A DNA stretch of 64,000 nt from Microcella putealis (GTDB taxonomy: Bacteria; Actinomycetota; Actinomycetes; Actinomycetales; Microbacteriaceae). Below, in pieces: positions 50,983 to 61,167 of the stretch. Where the stretch lies: positions 248,001-312,000 of the forward strand of contig NZ_SGWW01000003.1 in the NCBI RefSeq assembly GCF_004216575.1, read 5' to 3'. Under the pieces are notes generated by a model. It did not search any database, was not told the DNA's origin, and worked only from the letters and a program-made list of their open reading frames with translations. The stretch's first letter is position 1. Each line of letters starts with the position of its first letter. The position numbers were made by a program, and so were the translations under genes.

Positions 50983-51032
50983 CGTTCACGGCGCTGTGTG
51001 CCCGCTAAGGCGCGCGGAGTAGCGTGGCGGGC

Positions 51033-52253
51033 ATGGCGGCGAGCACGGGGCACACCACGCAGGGCGGGCAGGATGCACGCGGCGGCGACCGCGCGCTCGA
51101 CGCGGCGCGCGATGCGCAACTGCTCGCGCGCATCCGCGAGCGGGCGCCGCAGTACGACCGCGACAACGCGTTCTTCGCCGACGACCTCGCCGAGCTGCGC
51201 GCCCACGGATACCTGAAACCCCGCAGCCTGACCGCCGCGATGCGCGACCAGCGGCTGCTCGCCGCGCACGCCCCGGCGACGGCGCTCGGCCTCACGATGC
51301 ACCTCGTCTGGATGGGCGTCGCCCGCGACCTTGCCGCCGCCGGCGACGACTCGCTCGCCTGGGTGCTCGACGACGCGGCCGCCGGCGAGGTGTTCGCCTT
51401 CGCGATCAGCGAGCGCGGCAACGACCGGGTCATGAGCGATTCGACCACCCGCGCCGACCGGGTCGACGCCGGCTGGGCCCTCACCGGCACGAAGATCTTC
51501 ACCACCCTCTCGCCCGCCTGGACCCGCCTCGGCACCCTCGCCCGGCACGACCCCGACCCGGCCCGCGGCGAGACGGGCGACCCCGTCATCGTGCACGGCT
51601 TCCTCACCCGCGACGACCCGCACGGCGACCCGACGGCGACCCCGCCCGGCGTCACCGTCACCCCCGACTGGGACACGCTCGGCATGCGCGCCACCCAGTC
51701 CCACACGACCCATCTCGAGGGGGCGGTCATCCGCGACGAGCGCGTGGCGCGCATCCTGCCCGCGGGGTCTCCCGGCGACCAGTACACGCTCGCGATCTTC
51801 GCGAACTTCCTCACCCTGATCGGCGCGGTTTACGCGGGGCTCGCCGACCGCGCGCTTGAGCTCGCCGTCGAGTCGGCCCGCACCCGCACGAGCATGAAGC
51901 TCGACGGGGCGCCGTACGCGCACGACCCCGACATTCGCCGACGCATTGCGGATGCGGCGATCGCGCTCGACGCGCTCGCTCCGCAACTCGAGGCGGTCAC
52001 CGCCGATCGGGAGGCCGGGGTCGATCGGGGGCTGCGGTGGTTCCGCGACCTGACGGGGCTCAAGCAGCGCTGCGTGCAGACCGCGCGCGAGGTGGTCGAC
52101 CAGTGCATGCACGCCGTCGGCGGCTCGGGCTACCGCAGCGCGGCCGAGCTGAGCCGGCTGCAGCGGGACGTTCTGGCGGGCATCTACCACCCGAGCGACC
52201 CCGAGAGCGTGCAGTCGACCGTCGCCAGCGACCTGCTCGGGCCGCTGCCGTGA
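51033..52253 (+). CDS. Acyl-CoA dehydrogenase family protein
   Basis: 406 residues of the flavin-dependent acyl-CoA dehydrogenase fold: N-terminal helical domain (YDRDNAFFADDLAELRAHGYL), middle beta domain (FAFAISERGNDRV ... GWALTGTKIFTTLSP) and C-terminal helical domain ending CMHAVGGSGYRSAAELSRLQRD. It is closer to the DszC/hydroxylase-like subgroup than to classical fatty acid enzymes, so oxygenation is possible. The ATG at 51033 follows TAGCGT by 7 bases. The GTG at 51024 lies inside that hexamer and is rejected. Confidence 0.85.
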   Translation: MAASTGHTTQGGQDARGGDRALDAARDAQLLARIRERAPQYDRDNAFFADDLAELRAHGYLKPRSLTAAMRDQRLLAAHAPATALGLTMHLVWMGVARDLAAAGDDSLAWVLDDAAAGEVFAFAISERGNDRVMSDSTTRADRVDAGWALTGTKIFTTLSPAWTRLGTLARHDPDPARGETGDPVIVHGFLTRDDPHGDPTATPPGVTVTPDWDTLGMRATQSHTTHLEGAVIRDERVARILPAGSPGDQYTLAIFANFLTLIGAVYAGLADRALELAVESARTRTSMKLDGAPYAHDPDIRRRIADAAIALDALAPQLEAVTADREAGVDRGLRWFRDLTGLKQRCVQTAREVVDQCMHAVGGSGYRSAAELSRLQRDVLAGIYHPSDPESVQSTVASDLLGPLP

Positions 52254-56909: not shown

Positions 56910-56927
56910 GCGCCCACTCTACTCTTG

Positions 56928-56975
56928 TGTCAGTTTCTGACATCACCTACTCTCGTGTCATGACAGTTCATGACA
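56928..56975. promoter_or_regulatory. TetR operator cluster between divergent TetR and SDR genes
   Basis: TGTCAG-TTT-CTGACA (56928-56942) is a perfect 6-bp-arm dyad. TGTCATGACA (56956-56965) is a perfect palindrome covering the SDR start codon. TCATGACA at 56958-56965 is repeated exactly 10 bases later at 56968-56975. Both predicted -10 elements (56916-56921 minus, 56948-56953 plus) flank the first dyad. Confidence 0.75.
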
Positions 56976-57919
56976 TCACTCGTCCCACCGTTCTTCTCAC
57001 CGGGCCGACTAGCGGCATCGGCTCCGGAATGCTGCGGCACCTGCTGCAGCACCCGTCACGCCCGAACCTCGTGCTGATGGCGCGCAACGCCGAGGCCCTC
57101 GAGCGCTGCGTGGCCGACGCGCGCGGGGCGGGGCTGACCGCGCGCGGTATCGTCGGCGACCTCGGCGACCTCGACAGCGTGCGGGCCGCTCTCGGCACGC
57201 TCGCGAGCCTCGTCGAGTCGGGTGGAGTCGCCCGCATCGACGCGGCGCTGCTGAACGCGGGAACCCACCTCGGCGACCGCACACACCGCGGGGCCCAGGG
57301 GTACGAGTTGACCTTCACGGTCAACGTGATCGCGCAGCACCTGCTCGTCACCGGTTTGCAGCCGTTGCTCGCGCGGGGCGGTCACACCGTGGTGATGGGC
57401 TAGTCGACCCATCGCGGCAAGCAACGGTCGTTCAACTTGATGCCCGACCCGCAGTGGCAGGAGCCAGCGGCACTCGCAACGATTGACGAGGTTCCGGCCG
57501 CATCCACCGGCGCGGCGTGGGAGCGGGGCGGCATCGCGTACGCCTCGAGCAAGCTCGCTCTCGTGACGGTCGCGCACGAGTGGGCCGAGCGGTACGCCGA
57601 GTCGGGCCACCGCCTCAACGTGTACGACCCCGGTCTGACCGTCGGCACCGGGCTCGTGCGCGACATGTCAGCGCTCAAGTACTGGGTGTGGAAAAACGTG
57701 ATGCCTGTTATGGCGATCCACCCCAAGGCCACCACGGTGCGCGTCACCGGCCGTCACGCCGTCGAGTTGGCGCTCGGTGACGCGCACCCGCGCCTGCACG
57801 ACGGCTACGTCGAGATCGGAAAGGTCACGGCCGCCGAGCCGATCACCGTCGACCGCGAGCGGCGACGGATGCTGGCCGACTGGCTCGACACCGCCGTCGC
57901 GACCGCTCCGCGCGCGTAG
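56960..57919 (+). pseudogene. Short-chain dehydrogenase interrupted by an in-frame amber codon
   Basis: The reading frame gives a normal SDR of about 319 residues except that codon 148 (57401-57403) is TAG. Before it: TGPTSGIGSGMLRHLL cofactor motif, AALLNAGTH and the strand LLARGGHTVVMG. After it: STHRGKQRSF, then YASSKLALVTVAHEW with the catalytic Tyr-Lys, then NVYDPGL. Related SDRs have Ser at this place, and TCG to TAG is one base. Either the gene is broken, or the stop is read through, or the base is a sequencing error. The ATG at 56960 follows TACTCT by 6 bases. An internal ATG at 57437 could start a useless C-terminal fragment. Confidence 0.85.
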
Positions 57920-58046: not shown

Positions 58047-59114
58047 ATGCTTGCCGTTTCCGACATCGCCGCGACCGATCTGCGCGACGATGACCTGAGC
58101 CCGCTCGTGACGCTCGCCGCCCAGCTGCGTGCGAACGACGTGACGGCGGCGCTCGCGGCGGCGCGGATGCTCGGGGATTCCGTCGGACCGGCGACCCGTC
58201 ACGCCGATCGCTGGTCGGCACTCGCCACCCTCGCCACCTGCGACGTGGGGCTCGCCCGCATATGCGAACCCCACCTCGATGCCCTCAGCATCCTCGACGA
58301 GAGCGAGCTGCCGCGCGCGGTGACGGCGCGCGCGAGCGAGCGCACGTGGGGCGTTTTTGCCGCGGAGGGCGGCGACGAACCGCTCGGGGCACGCCGCTCG
58401 CCCGACGGCTGGATCCTTGACGGCGTGAAGCCGTGGTGTTCGCTCGCCGCCTCCCTCGACGCCGCGCTCGTCACGGCGCGCGTCGACGGCTCGGACGAGC
58501 GGTCGCTGTTCGCGGTCGAGCTGCGTCAGCCGGGCATCGAGACCGATGAGTCGTCGTGGCACGCGCGGGGGCTCGCCGAGGTGGCGAGTGGGCCCGTTCG
58601 CTTCCGTCATGTGACGGCCGAGCTCATCGCGCCCGATGGCTGGTACCTCGAGCGCGCCGGCTTCTGGTGGGGCGCCATCGGTGTGGCCGCCTGCTGGTAC
58701 GGCGGAGCCGTGGGTGTCGCGCGCCGCGTGCATCGGGGTGTTGCCGAGCGCCCCGACCCGCACGCGCAGGCTCACCTGGGCGCCATCGACACGGCACTGC
58801 AGTCGGCGCGTCGGGCGCTCGCCGAGGCGGCGAGCCAGGCCGACGGTGACGCCCCTGCTGCCGAATCGGCGGCCTTCACGCAAGACTCTGCGGAGCCGCG
58901 CCTCGTTGCGAAGCGCGTGCGCGCCACCGTGGCCGCCGCGTGCGACGAGGTGCTCACCCGAGCGGGTCGGGCGCTCGGCCCCGCGCCCCTCGCGCTCGAC
59001 GAGCAGCACGCCAAGCGGGTCAGCGACCTCACCCTCTACATTCGCCAGCATCACGCCGAGCGTGACCTCGCCTCACTGGGCTCCGCTCTCGCGAACGGGC
59101 CGGCACCGTGGTGA
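58047..59114 (+). CDS. Acyl-CoA dehydrogenase-like protein of the PIG-L/GT2 cluster
   Basis: 355 residues. It has a degenerate acyl-CoA dehydrogenase layout: helical N terminus, middle domain with RSPDGWILDGVKPWCSLA and FAVELRQPGI, and a C-terminal helical domain (AHLGAIDTALQSARRALAEAA ... LYIRQHHAERDL). The usual catalytic Glu context is not obvious, so activity is uncertain. ATG at 58047 chosen for the GAGG 8 bases before it; the GTG at 58005 is possible. Its stop overlaps the next gene (GTGA), so it is tied to the deacetylase/methyltransferase fusion. Its role there may be oxidation of an acyl or sugar intermediate. Confidence 0.8.
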   Translation: MLAVSDIAATDLRDDDLSPLVTLAAQLRANDVTAALAAARMLGDSVGPATRHADRWSALATLATCDVGLARICEPHLDALSILDESELPRAVTARASERTWGVFAAEGGDEPLGARRSPDGWILDGVKPWCSLAASLDAALVTARVDGSDERSLFAVELRQPGIETDESSWHARGLAEVASGPVRFRHVTAELIAPDGWYLERAGFWWGAIGVAACWYGGAVGVARRVHRGVAERPDPHAQAHLGAIDTALQSARRALAEAASQADGDAPAAESAAFTQDSAEPRLVAKRVRATVAAACDEVLTRAGRALGPAPLALDEQHAKRVSDLTLYIRQHHAERDLASLGSALANGPAPW

Positions 59115-60475
59115 GCTTCGACGCCCGCGTCGCCGGCACCCCTGCCCAGGCCTGGCGCGACGACCCCCGACTCGACCGGGCGGCGCCGCTCGACGTCGCC
59201 ACCGTCGACCGGCTGGTCGTGGTCGCAGCCCACCCCGACGACGAGACGCTCGGCGCGGGCGGTCTCATTGCCGGATGCGCGGCGCGCGGCATCCCCGTCA
59301 CCATCGTGATCGTCACCGACGGCGCCGCCTCGCACCCCGACGATGTGCTGACCTCGCGGCGACGCGCGCGAGAGGCGGCACGCGCCGTCGAGGTTCTCGC
59401 GCCGAACGCCGAACTGCGCCTGCTCGGTTTTCCCGACGGGCGAACTGACGAGCACCGCTGGGCCATCCGCACCGCGCTGAACGCGGCGATCGGTGACGTC
59501 GGCGCGGGCACCCGGGTCGCGGCGCCGTGGCGGGGTGACGGGCACCGCGACCACCGCGTCGTCGGCGAGCTCGTTGCCGACCTCATGCCGGCGCCGCAAC
59601 TGTGGGAGTACCCGATCTGGATGTGGCACTGGGCTGACCCGGCTGATGCGGTGGTTCCGTGGTCGAGGGCGCGGCGCGCATCCATCGATGCGGCGCCGAA
59701 GGCCCGCGCGATCTCGGCATACGCTTCGCAGACGAACGGAGACGCGCCGCAGTTGCTGCCGTCGTTCCTCGAGCATTTCCGCGGCGATACCGAACTGATT
59801 TTCGTCGCCGAGGAGGTGCCGCCGGCCCTCGCCGAGGCGGCGCGGCCCGCCGCGACGGTGAGCCCCACGGTCGACACGGTGGGCCACGAACACTTCGACG
59901 CGCTCTACGCCCGTCGTGCCGACCCGTGGCGCGTCGAAACCCGCTGGTACGAGCAGCGCAAACGCGCGCTCACCCTCGCGAGCCTGCCGCACCCCGCGTA
60001 CGCCTCGGGCCTCGAGGTCGGGTGCTCGATCGGCGTCTTGACCGCAGAACTCGCCGACCGCTGCGCGTCGCTGCACGCCATCGACGTGTCGGCCGAGGCG
60101 GTGCGCCGCACGCGGGAGCGTCTCGACGCCGACGAGGTGAGGGGCGTGACGGTCGAGCAGCGCGACGCCCGCGAGCTTGACGTCGCCGCGCGCTATGACC
60201 TCATCGTGCTGTCGGAAGTCGGCTACTACCTCGACCCCACAGCCCTCGATCAGGCGCTCGACCGGCTTCTCGAGTGTCTCAGTGACGACGGCGTGCTCGT
60301 CGCCTGCCACTGGCGGCACACGGTCGACGGCATTCCGGCGACCGGCGATCAGGTGCACGACGCCCTCGCCCGGCGGCCGCTGCACCGGGTGGCGCGGTAC
60401 CGCGATGACGACGTCGTGCTCGACGTGGTGAGCCGTGACCCGCGATCGGTCGCCCGGCAGGAGGGCCTCGCATGA
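59111..60475 (+). CDS. PIG-L deacetylase / NodS-like SAM methyltransferase fusion
   Basis: 454 residues in two domains. Residues about 33-225 are a PIG-L/LmbE zinc deacetylase: AAHPDDETLGAGG with His41, Asp43 and Asp44, and the distal GDGHRDHRVV with His145 and His148. Residues about 255-440 are a NodS-type class I methyltransferase: HFDALYARRADPWRVETRWYEQRK, motif I GLEVGCSIGVLTAELA, then AIDVSAEAVRRTRERL. Both activities fit N-deacetylation followed by N-methylation of an amino sugar. The GTG at 59111 overlaps the upstream stop; a GTG one codon earlier is equivalent. Coupled to the glycosyltransferase gene by an ATGA overlap. Confidence 0.9.
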   Translation: MSFDARVAGTPAQAWRDDPRLDRAAPLDVATVDRLVVVAAHPDDETLGAGGLIAGCAARGIPVTIVIVTDGAASHPDDVLTSRRRAREAARAVEVLAPNAELRLLGFPDGRTDEHRWAIRTALNAAIGDVGAGTRVAAPWRGDGHRDHRVVGELVADLMPAPQLWEYPIWMWHWADPADAVVPWSRARRASIDAAPKARAISAYASQTNGDAPQLLPSFLEHFRGDTELIFVAEEVPPALAEAARPAATVSPTVDTVGHEHFDALYARRADPWRVETRWYEQRKRALTLASLPHPAYASGLEVGCSIGVLTAELADRCASLHAIDVSAEAVRRTRERLDADEVRGVTVEQRDARELDVAARYDLIVLSEVGYYLDPTALDQALDRLLECLSDDGVLVACHWRHTVDGIPATGDQVHDALARRPLHRVARYRDDDVVLDVVSRDPRSVARQEGLA

Positions 60476-61167
60476 TTCGCATGGGTGTCGTGATTCCGGC
60501 GCGCAACGAGGAGGCGCGCATCGACGCGTGCCTGCGGTCCCTCGCCGTGGCAATCGCCGAAGCGCGGGCGGTGGCCGAGGTGTCGGTGACGGTGGTCGCC
60601 GACGACTGCAGCGACGGGACCGAGGCGATCGTCGCATCCCATGCCGGGGTGCGCGTGTTGCGCTCGCGCGGCGCAAACGTGGGCCTCGCGCGCGCGGTCG
60701 GCGCGCACCGCGAAATCGCCGACGGATGCACGTGGCTGGCTCACACGGACGCCGATTCGACCGTGCCGCCGAACTGGATCGTCGAACAGGTGGCCGCGGC
60801 ACAGGCCGGTGTCGACGTGCTGATCGGCACCGTTCGGCCGAACTTCGACGAGCTGACGGCCGAGCAGGTGGCCCACTGGCGCGCGACGCACGTTCGCGGC
60901 CGCCCGAACGGCCACGTGCACGGCGCAAACCTCGGCGTGCGCGTCTCGACCTACCTCGCCGCGGGCGGCTTTCTGCCGCTGCTCGAGCACGAAGACAACG
61001 ACCTCGTCGACCGGATGCGCGGGGTCGGGTCGATCACGCTCGCGAGCGACCGCGCCGAGGTCGTCACCTCGGGCCGGCTCGTCGGCCGCACGATGGGCGG
61101 CTACGCCGGGCACCTGCGGGCGATTCGCGATGCGCTGAACGAGGAATCGCCGGCGGTCGCCACGTAA
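60472..61167 (+). CDS. Glycosyltransferase family 2
   Basis: 231 residues: GVVIPARNEEARIDACLRSL at the N terminus, VVADDCSDGTEAIV, and the metal-binding AHTDADSTVPPNWI (Asp-Ala-Asp), then GANLGVRVSTYLAAGGF and a HEDNDLVDRM acceptor-side segment (Glu-Asp). No membrane helix, so a soluble or peripheral enzyme. Third gene of the coupled cluster; the acceptor is unknown. The cluster ends 57 bases before the aldo/keto reductase. Confidence 0.9.
   Translation: MIRMGVVIPARNEEARIDACLRSLAVAIAEARAVAEVSVTVVADDCSDGTEAIVASHAGVRVLRSRGANVGLARAVGAHREIADGCTWLAHTDADSTVPPNWIVEQVAAAQAGVDVLIGTVRPNFDELTAEQVAHWRATHVRGRPNGHVHGANLGVRVSTYLAAGGFLPLLEHEDNDLVDRMRGVGSITLASDRAEVVTSGRLVGRTMGGYAGHLRAIRDALNEESPAVAT

Follow-up and report, generated by a model that had tools for sequence, protein, structure and literature searches.

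Nod-factor synthesis draws on a family 2 glycosyltransferase (GT2; the synthase NodC), a de-N-acetylase (NodB, of the CE4 fold) and an N-methyltransferase (NodS). Here we describe a cassette of three genes in Microcella putealis (contig NZ_SGWW01000003.1, positions 248,001 to 312,000 of the forward strand; this whole stretch of 64,000 nucleotides is the window) that encodes a flavoprotein with an acyl-CoA dehydrogenase fold, a single chain joining a PIG-L deacetylase to a NodS-type methyltransferase, and a GT2. The cassette resembles the Nod-factor steps in combining a GT2, a de-N-acetylase and a methyltransferase of the NodS family, with related methyltransferase clades in the two systems, and the variants that we call Rubrobacter type share even the NodB fold of the deacetylase. 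It differs from them in its small GT2 and its additional flavoprotein. By reading, no nod genes were seen beside the window's cassette, and neither a NodA acyltransferase nor a NodC synthase, for which no genome-wide search was made.

Other described relatives concern single components. The nearest solved relatives of the PIG-L half in a profile search are diacetylchitobiose deacetylases, which share its fold and, unlike the window's fusion, are chains of 267-272 residues not joined to a methyltransferase. The methyltransferase half is closest by profile to 4isc, a putative methyltransferase of Pseudomonas syringae whose entry title gives no function; in contrast to the window, the methyltransferase of the Pseudomonas loci examined does not share a chain with PIG-L. 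The flavoprotein has the fold of the flavin monooxygenases DszC/TdsC, MsuC, KijD3 and DnmZ, from which it differs by a glutamine at the position of the dehydrogenase catalytic glutamate. Judged by the titles and abstract openings listed, searches of the open-licence literature aimed at the cassette turned up no description of it.

Comparisons of sequence and predicted structure incline us, somewhat beyond an even chance, to regard the three genes as an amino-sugar tailoring cassette combining glycosyl transfer by the GT2, de-N-acetylation, N-methylation and a flavin step other than dehydrogenation. In this scenario, the GT2 would attach an N-acylated, GlcNAc-like amino sugar to an acceptor, the PIG-L half would then strip the acetyl group, and the NodS-type half, part of the same chain in this lineage, would methylate the freed amine. 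The flavoprotein would catalyse an oxidation other than ordinary acyl-CoA dehydrogenation, perhaps N-oxygenation. We infer from the comparisons given below in which order these steps run, that methylation falls on nitrogen, which sugar and which oxidation are involved, and what the biological role is. If the scenario is correct, a conserved set automatically named as lipid and nodulation enzymes yields a common, so far uncharacterised amino-sugar product, and the Nod-factor N-methylation step gains a concrete non-symbiotic relative. A methyltransferase family whose deacetylase partner changes repeatedly would also offer a handle for substrate prediction.

Composition and spread of the cassette

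The three genes are real, intact and overlapping: the end of the flavoprotein gene shares 7 bp with the start of the fusion gene, whose end in turn shares 4 bp (ATGA) with the start of the GT2 gene. Coordinates and Pfam matches thereby bore out the initial annotation of a cluster with PIG-L and NodS-type domains in one chain and a GT2. The fusion matches PIG-L (PF02585) at 81.9 bits (gathering score, 28.2), with AHPDDE and HxxDH (residues 145-149) both present, and NodS (PF05401) at 77.5 bits (gathering cut-off, 24). In PIG-L proteins, motifs of this kind supply the zinc and base residues. The GT2 matches Glycos_transf_2 (PF00535) at 63.5 bits (gathering score, 23.3), and the flavoprotein matches Acyl-CoA_dh_M at 35.3 bits (cut-off, 33.3), with its C-terminal match to Acyl-CoA_dh_1, at 18.8 bits, lying under the cut-off of 22.4. 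Since full-length or nearly full-length homologues of the fusion occur as a single stop-free frame in 3 of 12 other genomes of the genus and 2 of 7 genomes of the order, its frame is not a chance reading.

A profile search of named genomes with the methyltransferase returned at least 577 relatives among 595 candidate stretches, and the best 80 of these form the named set, in which partners were counted anywhere in the stretch around the methyltransferase above 45 bits. The flavoprotein was found at 79 of the 80 loci, PIG-L at 79 and the GT2 at 72. The genes thus recur together, and the initial annotation is not refuted by the lack of co-occurrence that it had named as a test. The single locus without flavoprotein and PIG-L (L107) begins at a contig end. 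In even samples, where matches were counted at an E value of 1e-25 or better, the methyltransferase was present in 32 of 296 actinobacterial and 31 of 299 Pseudomonadota genomes. The flavoprotein accompanied it at 27 of 29 actinobacterial loci, the window's own not counted. Thirty loci were examined for the 31 matching Pseudomonadota genomes; 22 have the flavoprotein, accompanied at 18 of them by a clear PIG-L, and the remainder of the 30 comprise seven long chains of about 970 amino acids and one NodS.

The cassette is represented in Actinomycetota, Pseudomonadota and Deinococcota, and the set or most of it lies on annotated plasmids of Kitasatospora, Pandoraea, Acinetobacter, Bradyrhizobium, Sulfitobacter, Comamonas, Roseomonas, Komagataeibacter and Deinococcus. 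The most frequent gene order is flavoprotein, PIG-L, methyltransferase and GT2, with the GT2 sometimes placed in front and sometimes in opposite orientation. The cassette is broader and less exotic than the initial annotation had stated, and it is not peculiar to an actinobacterium. An Acinetobacter soli plasmid (L011, 6950-7959) carries an unannotated flavoprotein gene that is split across two frames. In Deinococcus radiodurans (L012, 4531-8594), a helicase-type gene on the opposite strand separates PIG-L from the methyltransferase, and no cassette GT2 was detected there.

The fusion is found at 65 of 131 tallied loci, a few places being counted double. By titles and kinship labels, the fused loci belong to Microbacteriaceae, Cellulomonadaceae, Micrococcaceae and other members of the window's order, which we take to be Micrococcales, and the sole fused locus of the even actinobacterial sample besides the window's own (L135) comes from the same order. 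Outside this order, PIG-L and methyltransferase are separate adjoining genes. In a tree of 160 methyltransferases, a single change suffices to set the fused rows apart from the other labelled rows (96/92), and unlabelled split rows fall among them. The fusion thus appears to be a lineage-specific form of what are otherwise adjacent genes.

Deacetylase exchange and kinship with NodS

The predicted structure of the fusion (mean predicted local distance difference test score [pLDDT], 92.0; predicted template modelling score, 0.72) places NodS with bound S-adenosyl-homocysteine (target TM score, 0.83) and 4isc as the best structural matches of the methyltransferase half, with identities of 27-30% to NodS and 43% to 4isc. 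A profile search gave the same two proteins, 4isc at an E value of 1.7e-65 and NodS at 2.5e-28. The half has a NodS-like fold of the kind that binds S-adenosylmethionine (SAM), and the match to the ligand-bound NodS structure predicts a SAM pocket, whose absence the initial annotation had named as a refutation.

A methyltransferase tree rooted with 22 other methyltransferases recovers the family as a single group (99/93), which divides into two sister lineages. One of them (99/88) unites 8 NodS rows with 5 rows of the long chains, which run from GT2 through a NodS-type methyltransferase to a deacetylase; the other (96/87) comprises the cassette methyltransferases. Among the latter, the Rubrobacter type is one clade (99/96) and the rest another (94/78); the tree label 'pigl' covers all other cassette rows, including three with no clear PIG-L (L170, L171 and L178) and one wrongly labelled row with a CE4 context (L027).

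The deacetylase changes around this methyltransferase. Twenty genomes of two families (f23 and f14) in the actinobacterial sample matched the methyltransferase at loci that we name Rubrobacter type after that of Rubrobacter indicoceani (L140, identical to L027), and none of 19 such loci examined shows a PIG-L gene in the 1.5 kb or so around the methyltransferase. In all 13 of the 20 that were examined over 14-15 kb (12 of f23 and 1 of f14), a NodB-fold (CE4) polysaccharide deacetylase adjoins the flavoprotein (Pfam check on L027), a pyridine-nucleotide oxidoreductase stands between methyltransferase and GT2, and PIG-L was undetected in the stretch. The same CE4 deacetylase lies near the methyltransferase in three more genomes (G147, G180 and G201), and the seven other actinobacterial loci compared have PIG-L and lack the Rubrobacter-type deacetylase. 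In some Pseudomonadota, the single chain of about 970 residues unites GT2, NodS-type methyltransferase and CE4 deacetylase (L188-L194, plus L258, 4513-7425); GT2, NodS and Polysacc_deac_1 domains were confirmed in two of seven (L188 and L190), and their CE4 part scores near zero with the model of the Rubrobacter-type cassette CE4. The L258 chain is annotated merely as 'glycosyltransferase'. True NodS is paired with NodB, and nodB and nodS stand together at two loci (L256 and L259).

One methyltransferase family thus pairs with either PIG-L or one of three kinds of CE4 deacetylase. That the pairing is kept across a changed deacetylase fold supports the freed amine of an amino sugar as the probable methyltransferase substrate and is the best evidence for it in our analysis. 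The amino-sugar product proposed in the initial annotation gains weight accordingly from the NodS-sister methyltransferase and the exchange with a NodB fold, as does its analogy with Nod-factor synthesis, within which N-methylation itself is what we infer. The lipid-linked form of the product that the same annotation offered draws no support from our comparisons.

A single CE4 recruitment for NodB and the Rubrobacter type was considered and is unsupported: in the CE4 tree, NodB falls among other CE4 proteins (98/91), whereas those of the cassette make up a separate group (100/95) to which two f14 rows also belong. Even so, all four Rubrobacter-type deacetylases scanned have NodB as their best NCBIfam model, at 106-123 bits against a cut-off of 240. 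The CE4-side split stands at 96/92 in the 160-methyltransferase tree and the PIG-L-type branch at 94/78 in the outgroup-rooted tree, but we claim no direction for the switch, as the root rests on long outgroup branches. The M. putealis genome has no match to Polysacc_deac_1 (PF01522, NodB-type CE4), whereas the other seven of the eight genomes searched have some.

Several observations weigh against the amino-sugar tailoring scenario. The GT2 is undetected at 8 of the 80 named loci, of which one (L054) is at a contig end and the other seven, five of them from Caballeronia or Burkholderia, are not; it was also undetected at the plasmid loci of Roseomonas and D. radiodurans. Paraburkholderia sp. 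D15 has the methyltransferase and GT2 only. Three Pseudomonadota loci with flavoprotein and methyltransferase (L203, L204 and L205) show neither PIG-L nor the Rubrobacter-type CE4 within 14 kb, and a fourth (L206) has a weak PIG-L match only. Within the genus the cassette is patchy, being absent from 9 of 12 genomes. For the flavoprotein, a fold search used as arbiter between dehydrogenase and oxygenase ended in tied Z-scores. Finally, on the NodS equivalog model (NF041650; cut-off, 300 bits), three cassette methyltransferases lie at 59-78 bits (77.8 bits for the window's fusion), compared with 341.2 bits for a true NodS (L196), so that the cassette enzymes are relatives of NodS rather than NodS itself.

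These scores, together with the 27-30% identity, would also suit methylation of an oxygen or a carboxylate on the same sugar scaffold, with the PIG-L half removing a different acyl group and the likeness to NodS reflecting ancestry only. We consider this unlikely, although it is the most serious of the alternatives; a deacetylase-methyltransferase pairing that survives a change of deacetylase fold, and that forms one chain in the window, fits the freed amine as target.

Acceptor, stress context and the flavoprotein

A second alternative, which we regard as rather improbable, is a stress-protectant pathway with trehalose or an alpha-glucan as the acceptor. Its appeal comes from the neighbours: in Comamonas the four cassette genes are flanked by otsA and otsB, the gene ends overlapping, and four Pseudomonas loci contain a glgX-type gene, which at one of them (L077) stops 2 bp ahead of the flavoprotein gene. 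Of 39 cassette windows, 7 contained one or more of 13 stress-type genes, as opposed to 2 of 54 control windows drawn from 18 genomes, a modest enrichment (one-sided Fisher P = 0.027; 4 of 19 in the matched windows alone, P = 0.036), the query genes having been picked after the neighbours were viewed and the genomes not being independent. Stress-type genes also occur in 23 of the 80 named windows, which we did not use as evidence because five query proteins (Dps, GlgX, GlgB, TreS and SDR) came from that set. Against this, all 13 query genes are missing from 32 of the 39 cassette windows, and inspection by eye of the surroundings of the window's own cassette revealed none. As most cassette windows hold none, a stress role of the cassette is a hint only.

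The first gene had been called acyl-CoA dehydrogenase-like, which holds for its fold and fails for its function. The structure model of the flavoprotein (pLDDT, 91.2) has the acyl-CoA dehydrogenase fold, with Z-scores of 31-33 to solved dehydrogenases, tied with DszC/TdsC, and Acyl-CoA_dh_M was found in 45 of 48 members scanned. KijD3 and DnmZ are in its Foldseek list and are not among the 50 rows of the Z-scored comparison. The best solved matches of its profile are 5gj7, 5z8t (titled flavin-containing monooxygenase) and DszC/TdsC, followed by a mix of dehydrogenases, MsuC, KijD3 and a nitrososynthase. Acyl-CoA dehydrogenases use as catalytic base a glutamate of the EGT motif or one at the isovaleryl-type position. 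At the former, an alignment shows glutamine (Q334 in the window protein) in 62 of 62 cassette proteins, while the glutamate is kept in all three ordinary paralogues from the same genome used as controls; at the latter, the six cassette rows displayed have glycine in five, aspartate in one (Rubrobacter) and glutamate in none.

We rejected a literal acyl-CoA dehydrogenase function of the first gene on the strength of this replacement. A true acyl-chain dehydrogenase using another base, in a pathway to a glycolipid with a modified acyl group, would fit the many acyl-CoA dehydrogenases among the best structural matches and the Acyl-CoA_dh_M domain, and is nonetheless quite improbable given the glutamine, the lack of glutamate at the isovaleryl-type position and the fact that no acyltransferase was seen in the cassette by reading. 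Flavin binding by the cassette protein is probable, and a flavin reaction other than acyl-CoA dehydrogenation appears more likely.

Two residues conserved in the cassette flavoproteins, Ser132 (62 of 62) and His76 (61 of 62), may be the counterparts of active-site residues of DszC/TdsC, MsuC, KijD3 and DnmZ. DszC-type monooxygenases have a serine and two histidines conserved in the active site; the third of these places is taken here by Gln334, with histidine at 335 in 34 of 62 proteins and at 336 in 47 of 62; the alignment to DszC stops before this place. According to one study, His391 of DszC aids oxygen activation, and a Ser-His relay in DszA is likened to DszC (PMC11134501). The cassette residues may correspond to the DszC active site. 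KijD3 and DnmZ, N-oxygenases that modify glycosides, are counted as homologues of the fold in another study (PMC5481743), and because of this homology N-oxygenation of the methylated amine is a possible, if unproven, step. The pyridine-nucleotide oxidoreductase of the Rubrobacter type would fit as a reductase for the flavoprotein.

Taken furthest, the amino-sugar scenario would describe a hitherto undescribed pathway of several bacterial groups that makes an N-methylated, flavin-oxidised (N-hydroxy or nitrone) amino-sugar conjugate as a stress protectant, with NodS as a specialised family member and the GT2 and a fold-interchangeable sugar de-N-acetylase as the lasting partners; in this full form we hold it to be speculative and unlikely. 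A low-molecular-weight thiol pathway akin to those of N-methyl-bacillithiol or mycothiol is very improbable, as the matches of the PIG-L half to the BshB1 and MshB models (41 and 25 bits) are weak beside cut-offs of 182.5 and 224.35, the glycosyltransferase is of family 2, and no cysteine ligase or BshC-like gene was seen in the cassette by reading.

The middle domain is matched six times in the M. putealis genome, namely, by the cassette protein, the three controls, a stretch (L200) left out of the alignment because it looked like a different, longer protein, and a second protein of the acyl-CoA dehydrogenase fold within the window (51024-52253, plus strand; 409 amino acids). The last of these has histidine at the catalytic glutamate position, where the cassette protein has glutamine. 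In two Deinococcus species (L012, 2190-4529, and L024, 4896-7244), the flavoprotein is extended by some 400 amino acids at its N-terminus; in L012 this extension has no Pfam match at an E value of 1e-4 and is glycoside hydrolase-like by eye.

Coordinates of the cassette and its upstream neighbour

Table 1. Genes and domains of the cassette, in window positions
Feature	Position	Strand	Size or motifs	Basis
Acyl-CoA-dehydrogenase-fold flavoprotein gene	58047..59114	+	355 aa	Pfam, structure model, alignment
PIG-L deacetylase/NodS-type methyltransferase fusion gene	59108..60475	+	455 aa, GTG start	Pfam, structure model
PIG-L domain of fusion, residues 37-158	59216..59581	+	AHPDDE at residue 41, GHRDH at 145	Pfam
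NodS-type SAM methyltransferase domain of fusion, residues 271-404	59918..60319	+	EVGCSIG at 303	Pfam
Small GT2 gene	60472..61167	+	231 aa	Pfam

Upstream of the cassette on the same strand, a short-chain-dehydrogenase-like gene (56927-57919) is interrupted by an in-frame TAG at 57401, which makes it either a broken gene or the product of a sequencing error.

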